Assembly: GCA_902633335.1 (NCBI GenBank)
Contig: CACPFY010000001.1
Span: 145,001 to 184,478 of the forward strand
Length of the DNA: 39,478 bases
DNA from: an uncultured Pelagibacteraceae bacterium
Lineage (GTDB): Bacteria > Pseudomonadota > Alphaproteobacteria > Pelagibacterales > Pelagibacteraceae
Reading direction: 5' to 3'
Made by a program: the position numbers and the translations under genes. This document shows, piece after piece, positions 9,029 through 14,039 of this stretch (the first letter of the stretch is position 1; every line of letters starts with the position of its first letter). Under the pieces are notes generated by a model. That model worked only from the letters and a program-made list of their open reading frames with translations, had not been told where the DNA came from and did no database searches.

Positions 9029-11572
9029 ATGAATTTATTTACAGCAGCTTTTAGTAAAATATTTAAAAGTAGTAATCAACAGGTATTAGATAAGATAAAA
9101 CCTTTGATTGCTGAGATTAATACTAGAGAAAGTTCATTGTCTGGGTTGAGAGACCAAGAATTCAAGGAAAAAACGCATTCTTTAAGGAAACAAGTTTCTA
9201 GCGGTGTAAAGTTAGAAAAATTAATTCCTGAGAGTTTTTCATTGGTAAGAGAGGCAGCTAAAAGAGTTTTGGGCGAAAGACATTTTGACGTACAGCTAGC
9301 TGGTGGAATAATTCTAAATCAAGGAAAAATAGCTGAGATGAAAACAGGTGAAGGAAAGACTCTTGTTTCTACTTTGCCAGCCTTTTTAAATTCTCTTGGC
9401 GGAAAAGGAGTTCACATAGTAACTGTGAATGATTATTTGGCTCAAAGAGATTCTGTATGGATGGGAAAAGTTTTTAATTTTTTAGGAGCTTCAACAGGAT
9501 GTATAACTTCTAATCTAGACGACAATGAAAGAAAAAAAAATTATAATTGTGATATTACCTATGCAACTAACAATGAGTTGGGTTTTGATTATTTAAGAGA
9601 CAATATGAAATATGATCTTAAAGATATGGTTCAAAGAGACCATAATTTTTGCATTGTTGATGAGGTTGATAGTATTTTAATTGATGAGTCTAGAACCCCA
9701 TTAATTATTTCTGGTAAAGTTGAAGATAAAAGTAATTTATATCTCGCCGCAAATGAGTTTGTAATTAAACTGCAAAAACCTGATTATGATTTAGATGAAA
9801 AAAACAAAAATGTAATTTTGACTGATACGGGAATAGATAAAATTGAAAAATTAGCTAGACAAAAAGGATTGCTTAAAAATAATAACTTTTATGATCCTCA
9901 AAATTTAAACTTAGTTCATCATGTTAATCAGTCTTTAAAAGCTAATTTATTATTTCTAAAAGATAAAGATTACATTGTAAAAGATGATAAAGTTCAAATT
10001 ATTGATGAGTTTACTGGTAGAATCCTAAGTGGAAGAAGATTTTCCGATGGTCTTCATCAAGCTATCGAAGCAAAAGAGAATGTAAGTGTTCAAGAAGAAA
10101 ATCAAACTCTCGCTTCTATCACCTATCAAAATTATTTTAGATTATATAAAAAATTATCAGGTATGACTGGTACCGCTTTGACAGAGGCAGAAGAGTTTTT
10201 TGATATTTACAAACTGAATGTCATTTCAATTCCTACTAATAATAAAATGATAAGAAAAGACTTCAATGATTTAATTTTTAGAACTGAAAAAGAAAAATAT
10301 GATGCAATTACTAAAAAAATATTAGAATGTAATAAAACTGGACAACCAATTTTAGTTGGTACAACAAGTATAGAGAAATCTGAAAAAATTTCTAAATTTC
10401 TAAAAGAAAAAAACCTAAAACATAATATTTTAAATGCTAAATTCCATGAAGAAGAAGCAAAAATTATTGCTGAAGCAGGTAAGGTAAATGCAATTACTAT
10501 AGCGACTAATATGGCAGGAAGAGGTACGGATATAAAATTAGGAGGGAAATTTGAAACAAATGAGCACAAAGACTTGATAAAACAAGAAGCAAAAAAAAAT
10601 GAGAACGCTGTTAAATCAAAAGGTGGTTTATGTGTTATTGGTACGGAGAGACATGAAAGCAGAAGAATAGATAATCAGCTTAGAGGGCGTTCAGGAAGAC
10701 AGGGAGATCCTGGAAGTTCAATTTTTTTCATAAGTTTGCAAGATGAATTGATGAGACTTTTTGGTGGGGACCAAATTGATGGTGTATTAAAAAAACTAGG
10801 TTTAAAAGAAAATGAGTCAATTGATCATCCTTGGATTAATAAAGCTATGGAGAGAGCACAAAAAAAAGTTGAAGCAAGAAATTTCGATATAAGAAAAACT
10901 CTTATAAAATTTGACGATGTAATGAATGATCAACGTCAAGTAATTTTTAGTCAAAGGCTTAATATTTTAAAACAATCTAACATTCACGAAATGCTAAAAG
11001 AATTTTTAAATGAATTATCTCAAAAATTATTAAAAATTAAAATTGATTTTAAAACATCAAATGATGAAAAATCGTTTTTAGCGAGTATCAAAAATTTAAC
11101 AGGTAATGCAATTGATGATAAAAAATTGATAAATTGTGCGAATTTAAATGACCAAGAATTTTTAAAAACGATTTTACTAATTTTTAATGAAAAAAGAGAT
11201 GAAAAAATCAAATTAATTGGTTCTGAACATTATCAAGATTTAGAAAAAAAAATCTTCTTGCAAATTTTAGATTTTTCTTGGAGAGCTCATCTACAGTATT
11301 TAGAACAGCTTAGACAAGTAATAGGGTTAAGAAGCTATGGTCAAAAAGATCCTCTATCTGAATTTAAAAAAGAGGCGTTTACTCTTTTTGAGATATTATT
11401 AGAGAAAGTAAAAAATGATGTTATTAAGTTTCTTTTAAATATGAATTTAGTTTTATCGAAGGAAACTGAAAAAGAAAAAATGCCTCTAGAAAAAAATCAA
11501 AAAGTAGGAAGAAATGATAAATGTCCTTGTGGTTCTGGTAAAAAATATAAACATTGTTGTGGATCTGTTTAA
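9029..11572 (+). CDS. secA: preprotein translocase subunit SecA
   Basis: SecA is the ATPase that drives secretory proteins through SecYEG. I start it at 9029 (MNLFTAAFSKIF), giving 847 residues; an upstream in-frame ATT-type extension to 8978 has no family support and would overlap argJ. Visible parts are the Walker A MKTGEGKT (104-111), VDEVDSILIDE, GMTGTA, the helicase motif TNMAGRGTDIKLGG, and QLRGRSGRQGDPGSS. The C-terminal zinc-binding tail RNDKCPCGSGKKYKHCC is intact. The stop at 11572 touches the stop of the convergent gene at 11573 with no spacer. Confidence 0.97.
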   Translation: MNLFTAAFSKIFKSSNQQVLDKIKPLIAEINTRESSLSGLRDQEFKEKTHSLRKQVSSGVKLEKLIPESFSLVREAAKRVLGERHFDVQLAGGIILNQGKIAEMKTGEGKTLVSTLPAFLNSLGGKGVHIVTVNDYLAQRDSVWMGKVFNFLGASTGCITSNLDDNERKKNYNCDITYATNNELGFDYLRDNMKYDLKDMVQRDHNFCIVDEVDSILIDESRTPLIISGKVEDKSNLYLAANEFVIKLQKPDYDLDEKNKNVILTDTGIDKIEKLARQKGLLKNNNFYDPQNLNLVHHVNQSLKANLLFLKDKDYIVKDDKVQIIDEFTGRILSGRRFSDGLHQAIEAKENVSVQEENQTLASITYQNYFRLYKKLSGMTGTALTEAEEFFDIYKLNVISIPTNNKMIRKDFNDLIFRTEKEKYDAITKKILECNKTGQPILVGTTSIEKSEKISKFLKEKNLKHNILNAKFHEEEAKIIAEAGKVNAITIATNMAGRGTDIKLGGKFETNEHKDLIKQEAKKNENAVKSKGGLCVIGTERHESRRIDNQLRGRSGRQGDPGSSIFFISLQDELMRLFGGDQIDGVLKKLGLKENESIDHPWINKAMERAQKKVEARNFDIRKTLIKFDDVMNDQRQVIFSQRLNILKQSNIHEMLKEFLNELSQKLLKIKIDFKTSNDEKSFLASIKNLTGNAIDDKKLINCANLNDQEFLKTILLIFNEKRDEKIKLIGSEHYQDLEKKIFLQILDFSWRAHLQYLEQLRQVIGLRSYGQKDPLSEFKKEAFTLFEILLEKVKNDVIKFLLNMNLVLSKETEKEKMPLEKNQKVGRNDKCPCGSGKKYKHCCGSV

Positions 11573-12016
11573 TTAAAAAAAAGGATTATAAGCCCATTGA
11601 AGTAAAGCTTGTCTCTGTCTTCTCCTACATTGCAAATCACCTCCATCACAATTTTTTCTCACAGCAGGTCCATGTCTATCTCCAAAAGCTTTCCATCTTT
11701 TGATTTGAATCATATCAATCTCTGGTAACCTTCTTCCATTTTTAAATCTACAATACCACTGGAACCAACCAAGTGGATCTTGTTTAAAAATCCAGCCTTT
11801 ATTAATCCATTCTTTTCTTGATAAACCAGATTCAATTTTAAAATAATTTATATTTATATCAAAGTTGTCACTGATTTTTGCTTTTTTAAACCAATCTTTA
11901 GGAAATTCTCTAATATCACCATCAGCGAAATATGCACCTCCAAATACACCTAGCTCCAGCATTTTTTTTGGAGTCAATTCGGGTTTGAATATTTTATAAA
12001 TTTCTTTTTCGTTCAT
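11573..12016 (-). CDS. conserved hypothetical protein (WFQWYCR motif)
   Basis: A 147-residue protein whose function I do not know. The conserved-looking core is the C-terminal half: KDWFKKAKI, GWIFKQDPLGWFQWYCRF (about 76-93), NGRRLPEIDMIQIKRWKAFGDRH and CRRRQRQALLQWAYN at the end. It is rich in Trp, Arg and Tyr and has no signal peptide or membrane segment. The cysteines at about 92, 122 and 129 could bind metal. The start ATG is five bases after the CCA end of tRNA-Phe, and there is no Shine-Dalgarno outside the tRNA. Its stop abuts that of secA. Similar proteins occur, from memory, in bacteria and some algae. Confidence 0.75.
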   Translation of the reverse strand: MNEKEIYKIFKPELTPKKMLELGVFGGAYFADGDIREFPKDWFKKAKISDNFDININYFKIESGLSRKEWINKGWIFKQDPLGWFQWYCRFKNGRRLPEIDMIQIKRWKAFGDRHGPAVRKNCDGGDLQCRRRQRQALLQWAYNPFF

Positions 12017-12021
12017 TTTGG

Positions 12022-12096
12022 TGGTGGCCTTGGTTTGAATCGCACAAACGACACATACCTTTTCAGGGTACTGCTCTACTACTGAGCTACAAGGCC
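12022..12096 (-). tRNA. tRNA-Phe (anticodon GAA)
   Basis: The minus strand folds into a 75-base tRNA: acceptor GGCCTTG/CAAGGCC, D stem GCTC/GAGC, anticodon stem GTACC/GGTAT with loop CTGAAAA (anticodon GAA), variable loop GTGTC, T stem GTTTG/CAAAC, and an encoded discriminator A plus CCA. Two positions are odd. The T loop reads TGCGATT, so base 55, almost always U, is G. The D loop AGTAGTA has a single G, so the partner base 18 is not G. The first base of the tRNA is the last base of the infA TAG stop codon, and the next gene begins five bases after CCA. It must be released from an infA-containing transcript. Confidence 0.93.
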
Positions 12097-12311
12097 TAAA
12101 ATCTAAAAGTTATTCTTCCTTTAGTAAGGTCATATGGAGTCATTTCAACCATTACATTATCTCCTGCAAGAACTCTTATTCTATTCTTTCTCAATTTTCC
12201 AGCAGTGTGAGCAAGAATTTCATGATTATTCTCGAGTTTTACTCTAAACATTGCATTGGGTAATAATTCAGTAACTTTCCCTTTAAACTCTAATGTTTCT
12301 TGTTTAGCCAA
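12096..12311 (-). CDS. infA: translation initiation factor IF-1
   Basis: IF-1 blocks the ribosomal A site during initiation. The 71-residue protein is full length, one OB-fold: [20 protein letters not shown] (3-22), then [19 protein letters not shown] (about 33-51) and [17 protein letters not shown] at the end. The stop codon TAG occupies 12096-12098 and its G is the first base of tRNA-Phe. In other Alphaproteobacteria infA also lies a few genes after murA. Cleavage by RNase P at the tRNA 5' end would leave an infA message ending in UA without a complete stop codon. Confidence 0.96.
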
Positions 12312-12340
12312 TAATTATTCCTATAAGTTATATTCAATCA

Positions 12341-12784
12341 TTATAAATCTTTGTGCTTAGGTTTATTTTTACTTTCCCACGGTGAACCTTGATCATCTAA
12401 AGTTACTTCAATAGCTTCAGCTACTAATTTAATTACTATATCTCCAGAAAAAATTAAATTCATTTCGTAATTTTTATCAGGCATTTTAGACGTTTCAATA
12501 GCTAAAAAGTCCAAAAATCTGTCATTTTTTTTTTGATTTACATTTTTTGACGTTACTTTAAGAATATTTTCAAATCTAAGTATAGTTCGAATTCTTTTAT
12601 TTTTTCTAAAAACTCCTTTTTCAACATCTTCCCACATAAACCTATTTAATTGCATGAGAAAAATTCTATTTTTTTTTAAATTGGCAATATCTGACGTTTT
12701 TACTATTGAGTCTTGTAAATGTGCAGAGATGACCCTTAAATCTTCATCTGTCTTCGCAATAAGTTTTAAATTTTGAACTTTCAC
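12341..12784 (-). CDS. DUF2948 family protein
   Basis: A 147-residue protein of the DUF2948 family, found in Alphaproteobacteria directly after murA. Visible family features are the start LKLIAKTDEDLRVISAHLQD (6-25), FLMQLNRFMWED (about 42-53), RTILRFENI and the end AEAIEVTLDDQGSPWES (about 123-139). It is cytoplasmic with no known function. Its start is one base after the murA stop, and infA follows after 29 bases. In Rhizobiales hisD and other genes lie between this gene and infA; they are absent here. Confidence 0.82.
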   Translation of the reverse strand: MKVQNLKLIAKTDEDLRVISAHLQDSIVKTSDIANLKKNRIFLMQLNRFMWEDVEKGVFRKNKRIRTILRFENILKVTSKNVNQKKNDRFLDFLAIETSKMPDKNYEMNLIFSGDIVIKLVAEAIEVTLDDQGSPWESKNKPKHKDL

Positions 12785-12785
12785 T

Positions 12786-14039
12786 CTAAACTCTTTTTAT
12801 ACGTGCTTTACAATTAATAAGTTTTTTTTCTAAATCTTGGTATCCTCTATCAAGATGATATATTCTATTTATTTTGGTTCTTTTATCTGCAATCAAAGCA
12901 GCTAAAACTAAACTCACTGATGCTCTTAGATCAGTAGCCATTACCTCAGCTCCAGTTAAAATACTCGGTCCTAAGATATATGCAGTGTTATTACGTATTT
13001 CTATTTTGGCTCCCATTCTTCTGAGCTCTGGAACATGCATAAATCTATTTTCAAAAATACTTTCTTTTATTTTTGATAAACCTTTTGCTTGCGTCATTAA
13101 TATCATAATTTGAGCCTGCAAGTCAGTTGGAAAGCCAGGGTATGGATCTGTTTTTAAATTAATATTTTTTATGCTTCCAGATTTGTAGACCTCTATGAAA
13201 TTTTCACCAATACTCATTTTAACACCCATCCTTTTCAAAACACTAATTTCTTTTTTAATTAGACTCTTATCAATATTTTTCAATTTTAACTTTTTGGCTG
13301 CTAAAGCCCCAGCTATTATATAAGTTCCAAGTTCAATTCGATCACAAATTACTTTATGTGAGACTTTTTTTTCTTTTAGTGATTTTTCTATTGTTATTTT
13401 TCTGCCCTTGATATTTATTTTGACGCCAAGTTTTTTTAAAAAATTTAATAGATCTATAATTTCAGGTTCAACAGCGCAATTATCCATTACTGTTATACCT
13501 TTGGCTTTAACTGCAGCTAAAATTGCATTTTCGGTTGCACCGACTGAAATTTTAGGAAATCTAAATCTTGTTCCCTTAAGACCATTTTTTGCTGTAGCAA
13601 AAATATATCCATTTTTGATCTTTATTTTTGCTCCAAGCTTTTTTAAAGCAAACAAATGTAAATTAACAGGCCTGGTACCTATTGCACATCCTCCTGGAAG
13701 TGAAACTTTAGCTTTTCTATACTTTGCAAGCAAAGGACCGAGTACTAAAACTCCAGCTCTCATAGTTTTGACAAGTTTATAAGGAGCTATGGTATTAATA
13801 TTTTTTCTTGGATTTATAACTTCAACTAAGTTAGTTTTCTTGGATAACCTATATTTTAGTCCAATAAATTTTAAAAGATTTAACATTGTGAAAATATCAT
13901 TTACAAAAGGAATATTTTTTATTGTAGTGTGATTATTAAGAATTGTGGCAGCCAGTATCGGTAGAGCGGAATTCTTTGAACCAGAAATAATTATACTGCC
14001 AGATAAGGTTTTTTTCCCATCTATTAATAATTTTTGCAT
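12786..14039 (-). CDS. murA: UDP-N-acetylglucosamine 1-carboxyvinyltransferase
   Basis: MurA adds enolpyruvate to UDP-GlcNAc, the first committed step of peptidoglycan synthesis. The 417-residue protein begins QKLLIDGKKTLSG and has the substrate-binding SGSKNSALPI (about 19-28, with Lys22 and Asn23) and the catalytic cysteine Cys118 in LPGGCAIGTRPV, the residue targeted by fosfomycin. The C-terminal part has ATDLRASVSLVLAAL and YHLDRGYQDLEKKL. It is five bases after dcd and one base before the DUF2948 gene. All key residues look normal. Confidence 0.97.
   Translation of the reverse strand: MQKLLIDGKKTLSGSIIISGSKNSALPILAATILNNHTTIKNIPFVNDIFTMLNLLKFIGLKYRLSKKTNLVEVINPRKNINTIAPYKLVKTMRAGVLVLGPLLAKYRKAKVSLPGGCAIGTRPVNLHLFALKKLGAKIKIKNGYIFATAKNGLKGTRFRFPKISVGATENAILAAVKAKGITVMDNCAVEPEIIDLLNFLKKLGVKINIKGRKITIEKSLKEKKVSHKVICDRIELGTYIIAGALAAKKLKLKNIDKSLIKKEISVLKRMGVKMSIGENFIEVYKSGSIKNINLKTDPYPGFPTDLQAQIMILMTQAKGLSKIKESIFENRFMHVPELRRMGAKIEIRNNTAYILGPSILTGAEVMATDLRASVSLVLAALIADKRTKINRIYHLDRGYQDLEKKLINCKARIKRV

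Follow-up and report, generated by a model that had tools for sequence, protein, structure and literature searches.

A one-base overlap between the infA stop codon and tRNA-Phe in a genus of SAR11-like marine bacteria

In animal mitochondria, most messages are bounded by tRNAs that punctuate the transcript, and incomplete stop codons are completed by polyadenylation. In Escherichia coli, mixed mRNA-tRNA operons, such as thrU-tyrU-glyT-thrT-tufB and secG-leuU, give rise to tRNAs that are cut from transcripts carrying protein genes, and there a spacer keeps the stop codon whole. A closer arrangement is the selB-selC overlap of Alphaproteobacteria, Gammaproteobacteria, and Nitrospirae, in which the 3' end of a translation-factor ORF overlaps with the tRNA gene that follows on the same strand (Mukai 2021, PMC8124441). 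According to the part of that paper available to us, the arrangement is conserved widely but has been lost now and then, the tRNA either sits within the ORF or has the stop codon deep inside it, SelB is the partner of its tRNA, and tRNA processing is proposed to limit the message and thus lower expression of the upstream ORF, as a proposal there too (PMC8124441). The same part describes the work as the first to report a tRNA gene nested within an ORF of bacteria, and tRNA-Sec nested in selB is the nearest published case among the matches listed from the open-licence literature; no title or abstract among those matches concerned a stop overlap of infA/tRNA-Phe or tuf/tRNA-Trp in SAR11.

We analyzed a window (the whole stretch of DNA under study, 39,478 nucleotides) from a SAR11-like host whose closest named contigs, by sequence comparison, are uncultured Pelagibacteraceae assemblies. 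The genome is about 0.95 Mb in size and 80.75% complete. On the minus strand, infA (12096..12311; IF-1 of 71 amino acids, TTG start, TAG stop at 12098-12096; PF01176, 4.1e-26) runs directly into tRNA-Phe(GAA) with an encoded CCA (12022..12096 by ARAGORN; Rfam tRNA match at 12096..12025, 65.2 bits), and direct reading of the joint gives ...AGA TTT TAG GCC TTG TAG CTC... The acceptor stem GGCCTTG/CAAGGCC, together with the encoded ACCA, places the tRNA 5' end at 12096, which is also the third base of the infA stop codon. Thus, the one-base overlap is real, and the claim of an earlier note that the infA stop codon contains base 1 of tRNA-Phe is borne out by direct sequence, ARAGORN, and Rfam. The span that the note assigned to the overlap, 12094-12098, does include it, although two of these bases belong to the tRNA only and the common base is 12096 alone. 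A second in-frame TAG for infA is provided by the tRNA bases U8-A9-G10 (12087..12089, minus strand).

Upstream of infA and on the same strand lie a DUF2948 gene (12341..12784; PF11164, 4.9e-42) and an EPSP synthase family gene that we take to be murA (12786..14039; PF00275, 4.3e-95). A 147-amino-acid ORF (11573..12016, minus strand) without a match in Pfam or NCBIfam starts 5 nt past the CCA end of tRNA-Phe, and its nearest ribosome-binding-like AAGG sits within the tRNA acceptor stem. No terminator-like site scored above threshold in 11550-12900, and infA is most likely cotranscribed with the only tRNA-Phe gene found. The only PF01176 match in the genome (80.75% complete) was infA, and a single tRNA-Phe gene was found, so that every tRNA-Phe would have to come from the infA joint; in this one-copy state of both genes the joint differs from selB-selC. 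It differs further in that it shares one base of the stop codon with the tRNA, and in that IF-1 has, to our knowledge, no special link to tRNA-Phe. The likeness to mitochondrial punctuation lies in the message itself, which would end at the tRNA 5' end with an in-frame UA or U left over: from what is known of RNase P, the cut would be expected between 12097 and 12096.

The earlier note had proposed to look for a conserved one-base overlap in related genomes, and we found the same overlap in 110 of the 120 genus loci that were read, one per genome, with all genus genomes in which infA was found without the joint string included. One overlapping locus is cut short by a contig end; the 109 with a whole tRNA carry 109 different infA sequences (median difference of 0.46 at fourfold sites), although mean IF-1 identity is 99.3% and tRNA-Phe occurs in two variants. 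The exact joint string TAGGCCTTGTAGCTCAG was present in 118 of 397 family genomes, all within the window's genus, and the reversed control gave no match. Besides the 110 loci read, these comprise five genomes in which the string abuts infA by coordinates only (their loci being unread), one in which the tRNA with the string lies 1.4 kb from infA, and two in which the place of infA is unlisted. The ten loci without overlap have gaps of 8 nt (three loci), 85 nt (one), or 947 to 1,414 nt (three), or have no tRNA within the stretch examined (three), and among genus loci with tRNA-Phe at most 100 nt away a gap of 8 or 85 nt occurs in 4 of 113. Like selB-selC, the joint is therefore conserved with some exceptions, some or all of which may be losses. 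The ten use TAA (eight loci) or TGA (two) and never TAG, so that the TAG stop of infA is held in place by the tRNA.

Conservation of the joint is by itself no proof of regulation. Since the tRNA is fixed and the protein end beside it hardly varies, infA and tRNA-Phe could be separated only by insertion or rearrangement. Of the 67 overlapping genomes with a hisD-like gene upstream of infA, 20 have a spacing other than 0 between these two genes, whereas the infA-tRNA joint is identical in 109 of 109 loci, which were preselected as overlapping and are uncorrected for relatedness. A Fisher test of the two spacings (p ~5e-10) is a hint only, as it ignores relatedness, includes the 109 preselected loci, and compares hisD ends that are free to vary with an IF-1 end that is not. 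An infA tree of 140 tips carried too weak a signal, with genus and outgroup mixed, and we do not rely on the seven parsimony changes (gains or losses) that it implied.

Loci outside the genus suggest how the joint arose. In two Rhizobiales loci (L104 and L135), infA is separated from tRNA-Phe by both maf and yacG, and in three SAR11 loci from outside the genus (L057, L059, and L092) by maf alone; the identification of Maf is backed by Pfam in L057, L092, and L135 and that of YacG in L135, and the remaining genes were recognized by eye. Among 45 SAR11 loci outside the genus (some genomes being counted twice), 33 have a gap of 0 to 13 nt, and ten have a gap of at least 51 nt or no tRNA seen; in these ten IF-1 ends in ...RFK or ...RLK, as opposed to ...RF, ...RY, ...RG, or ...RS in the 33 loci with a close gap. 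The series from maf plus yacG, through maf alone and 0 to 13 nt, to -1 thus points to a path of deletions, whose limit for a tRNA beginning with GG is TA|G. Judged from these sequences, the joint appears to be the end point of SAR11 genome shrinkage, reached as first maf and later the spacer were lost, and fixed since. The other two of the 45 loci are pieces of one broken infA, which is split with an in-frame TAG, possibly by assembly error or frameshift; both pieces start with TTG and stand close to tRNA-Phe, which lies 12 nt beyond the last matched codon.

Upstream same-strand ORFs were checked at all 21 tRNA places of the window's genome (22 distinct tRNAs by ARAGORN) and likewise at 28 places (27 distinct tRNAs) of a relative. 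Three genes end inside a tRNA in both genomes, namely infA (-1), tuf (-2), and recJ (-22). Convincing overlaps thus number three among the 22 tRNAs of the window's genome, in contrast to mitochondria, where tRNA-bounded messages prevail. The EF-Tu gene tuf (312-1502 of locus L163, on C5 of the window's genome) has the stop T|AG, of which two bases are common with tRNA-Trp (1501-1576 of the same locus). This joint was found in 15 of 151 genus genomes, following EF-Tu in 14 of the 15 loci and standing at a contig end in the other one; in a sample of 30 genomes, 25 had a tuf locus, with an overlap in 2 and gaps of 5 to 23 nt in 23. In the window's genome tRNA-Tyr and tRNA-Gly precede tuf, as in the E. 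coli mixed operon, and tuf starts 26 nt after tRNA-Gly, so that the tuf message is bounded by tRNAs on both sides. The recJ gene runs 22 nt into tRNA-Glu, with its TAG stop in the D-arm region of the tRNA, and is nearer to selB-selC in anatomy than the infA joint is; in the relative, recJ was identified by close sequence likeness. Further overlaps at L168 (-11) and L178 (-14) in the window's genome and at L327 (-24) in the relative involve ORFs of 69 to 95 codons and were rejected as unconvincing; at L168, the tRNA 5' end is additionally placed one base off that of its relative.

Cutting at the normal site would, by deduction, leave infA messages ending in ...UUU UA and tuf messages ending in ...AAA U. 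For infA, the earlier note had offered a choice between translation from uncut transcripts only and nonstop messages in need of rescue. This choice is incomplete, since 3' tailing as in mitochondria or a promoter within infA would be conceivable as well. The explanation that we favor as a whole, with a probability of about 0.5, is that the joint was made by genome shrinkage, that IF-1 comes mainly from uncut transcripts, and that cut ones are cleared by tmRNA. Ribosomes reaching UAG on transcripts not yet cut would make IF-1. RNase P would then split the stop codon between A and G, which would free tRNA-Phe and turn what remains into a stop-less infA message ending in ...UUUUA. Trailing ribosomes on this message would be freed by tmRNA, so that an infA message would cease to be useful once its tRNA is excised. 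While a ribosome occupies the stop codon, it would shield the 5' side of the acceptor stem, and translation and cutting should therefore compete. In E. coli, IF-1 and tRNA-Phe are present per cell in amounts of the same order, and hence it could be enough for each transcript to be translated once or a few times.

As for rescue, a search of 13 genus genomes, many of which are incomplete, gave alpha-type tmRNA above the cut-off in 6, and 8 of 8 genomes of another family of the order had it as well; it was not found in the window's own genome (80.75% complete). The tmRNA named by the earlier note is thus present in the genus. Rescue of the ArfB type is not supported: 21 genomes hold at most two RF-1-domain genes each, and hence no ArfB-like third copy was seen. 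The tRNA-Phe acceptor stem is predicted to form in its context (mean probability of 0.93 and minimum of 0.51 over 109 loci). The last ten leader bases before the tRNA are about half paired in the predicted folds (mean of 0.46), and a leader only half open may not be ideal for RNase P, which counts against the favored model. The tuf joint strains it as well. EF-Tu is needed in large excess over tRNA-Trp, for which a few translations per transcript would be insufficient, and tail completion or strong shielding by ribosomes becomes more attractive there. No single mechanism explains all three joints (infA, tuf, and recJ) well.

It is possible, if rather unlikely, that the joint is instead a neutral end point, with tRNA-Phe made mostly from a promoter hidden in infA and IF-1 supplied by long-lived read-through infA messages; the joint would then persist simply because only insertion or rearrangement could undo it. 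Deletion-driven shrinkage accounts for the path, and the seven genus loci with tRNA-Phe 8 to 1,414 nt downstream indicate that separation is viable. Synonymous diversity in the genus is reduced at infA codons 41-71 (observed/expected ~0.66-0.69, versus 0.96-1.0 at codons 2-40), as a hidden promoter could cause. However, the nearly fixed codons (GAT and AAA) are also the rule in ten SAR11 loci without an adjacent tRNA-Phe, so that their fixity is not tied to the tRNA, and we rejected the low diversity as a mark of an internal tRNA-Phe promoter. The earlier note had also considered a separate promoter between infA and the tRNA; no sigma-70-like promoter above threshold was found on the minus strand within infA in a simple-consensus scan, a weak negative that non-consensus promoters may escape. 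The scanned region overall held 11 promoter-like sites against 5.7 expected. At four loci with a standalone tRNA-Phe, the 90 nt before the tRNA are AT-rich and contain GTTATA (three loci) or GATATA (the fourth), which as a hint of promoters is suggestive only. The contrast between the variable hisD-infA spacing and the constant infA-tRNA joint, within the limits of preselected loci given above, likewise does not favor the neutral reading.

We consider it doubtful that the overlap has been retained for its coupling of IF-1 levels to the output of tRNA-Phe. The joint has remained unchanged across large synonymous divergence, and the start codon of infA is TTG in 120 of 120 genus loci; this fixity suggests selection for IF-1 synthesis that is low or limits itself. 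Another 66 SAR11 loci, among them the ten genus exceptions and eleven named genus contigs, with some genomes counted twice, have 56 TTG and 10 ATG starts, the latter being the ten loci outside the genus with tRNA-Phe at least 51 nt away or not seen, and other alphaproteobacterial loci have ATG in 61 of 61. A Fisher test of TTG against adjacency was based on rough counts and was not used. However, genus members with a distant or unseen tRNA-Phe retain TTG, which is thus independent of the overlap and probably reflects one clade-level change. The ten genus loci that live without the overlap, and the want of a known special link between IF-1 and tRNA-Phe, also speak against such coupling, although a published model with the same logic was proposed for selB-selC, with tRNA-Sec nested in selB, in the part of that paper available to us (PMC8124441).

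An improbable but bold alternative is that a free-living bacterium uses punctuation of the mitochondrial style, in which PNPase or the single nucleotidyltransferase would add tails to cut infA and tuf messages and so restore UAA; a tail starting with A (or G) would complete ...UA of infA, and an A tail would turn ...U of tuf into UAA. The infA and tuf joints leave exactly the partial stops of mitochondria (UA and U), and EF-Tu, which is hard to supply from uncut messages, has its T|AG joint in a fraction of the genus as given above. PNPase is encoded in 7 of 8 genus genomes searched, and it can extend RNA 3' ends, although the tails that it adds destabilize RNA, according to the part of the source available to us (PMC7866481). 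The PolyA_pol family (PF01743) is represented by one copy in 16 of 21 genomes, by a broken copy in one, and by none in four incomplete ones; where found intact, the gene is thus single, and the copy in the window's genome is nearer to the CCA-adding enzyme model (200 bits) than to PcnB (112 bits), both scores being below the cut-off. A clear PcnB was not found. Moreover, recJ would be beyond rescue by an A tail, since adding A to its cut end ...AAU GA would yield the codon GAA and not a stop. That RNase P cuts elsewhere, e.g., one base inside, and leaves the stop codon whole can practically be dismissed, as one-base cleavage shifts do occur in some tRNAs but here the 7-bp acceptor stem with G1-C72 is normal and CCA is encoded, a lost G1 would need repair, and very similar tRNA-Phe genes follow spacers of 1 to 8 nt in relatives.

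Two core translation genes of very abundant marine bacteria, infA and tuf, appear to lose their stop codons whenever a seemingly single-copy tRNA is made. Either stop-less messages would be routine, with a normal load of rescue, or translation would delay the cutting of the tRNA, or tailing would repair the messages. If the last were true, IF-1 and EF-Tu would be translated from messages whose full stop codon is added after cutting. Any of these outcomes bears on the limits of gene overlap under genome shrinkage and on how mitochondrial punctuation could have begun.

Two minor observations concern the surroundings of tRNAs in these genomes. A stretch containing CATCGA, located 3' of tRNA-Phe, is common to 56 of the 109 overlapping genus loci, and in the loci looked at the gene beyond it is presumably photolyase-like, as named from its first residues. 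In addition, a 472-codon open frame ends with TAG one base before tRNA-Arg(TCT) in both the window's genome and its relative.
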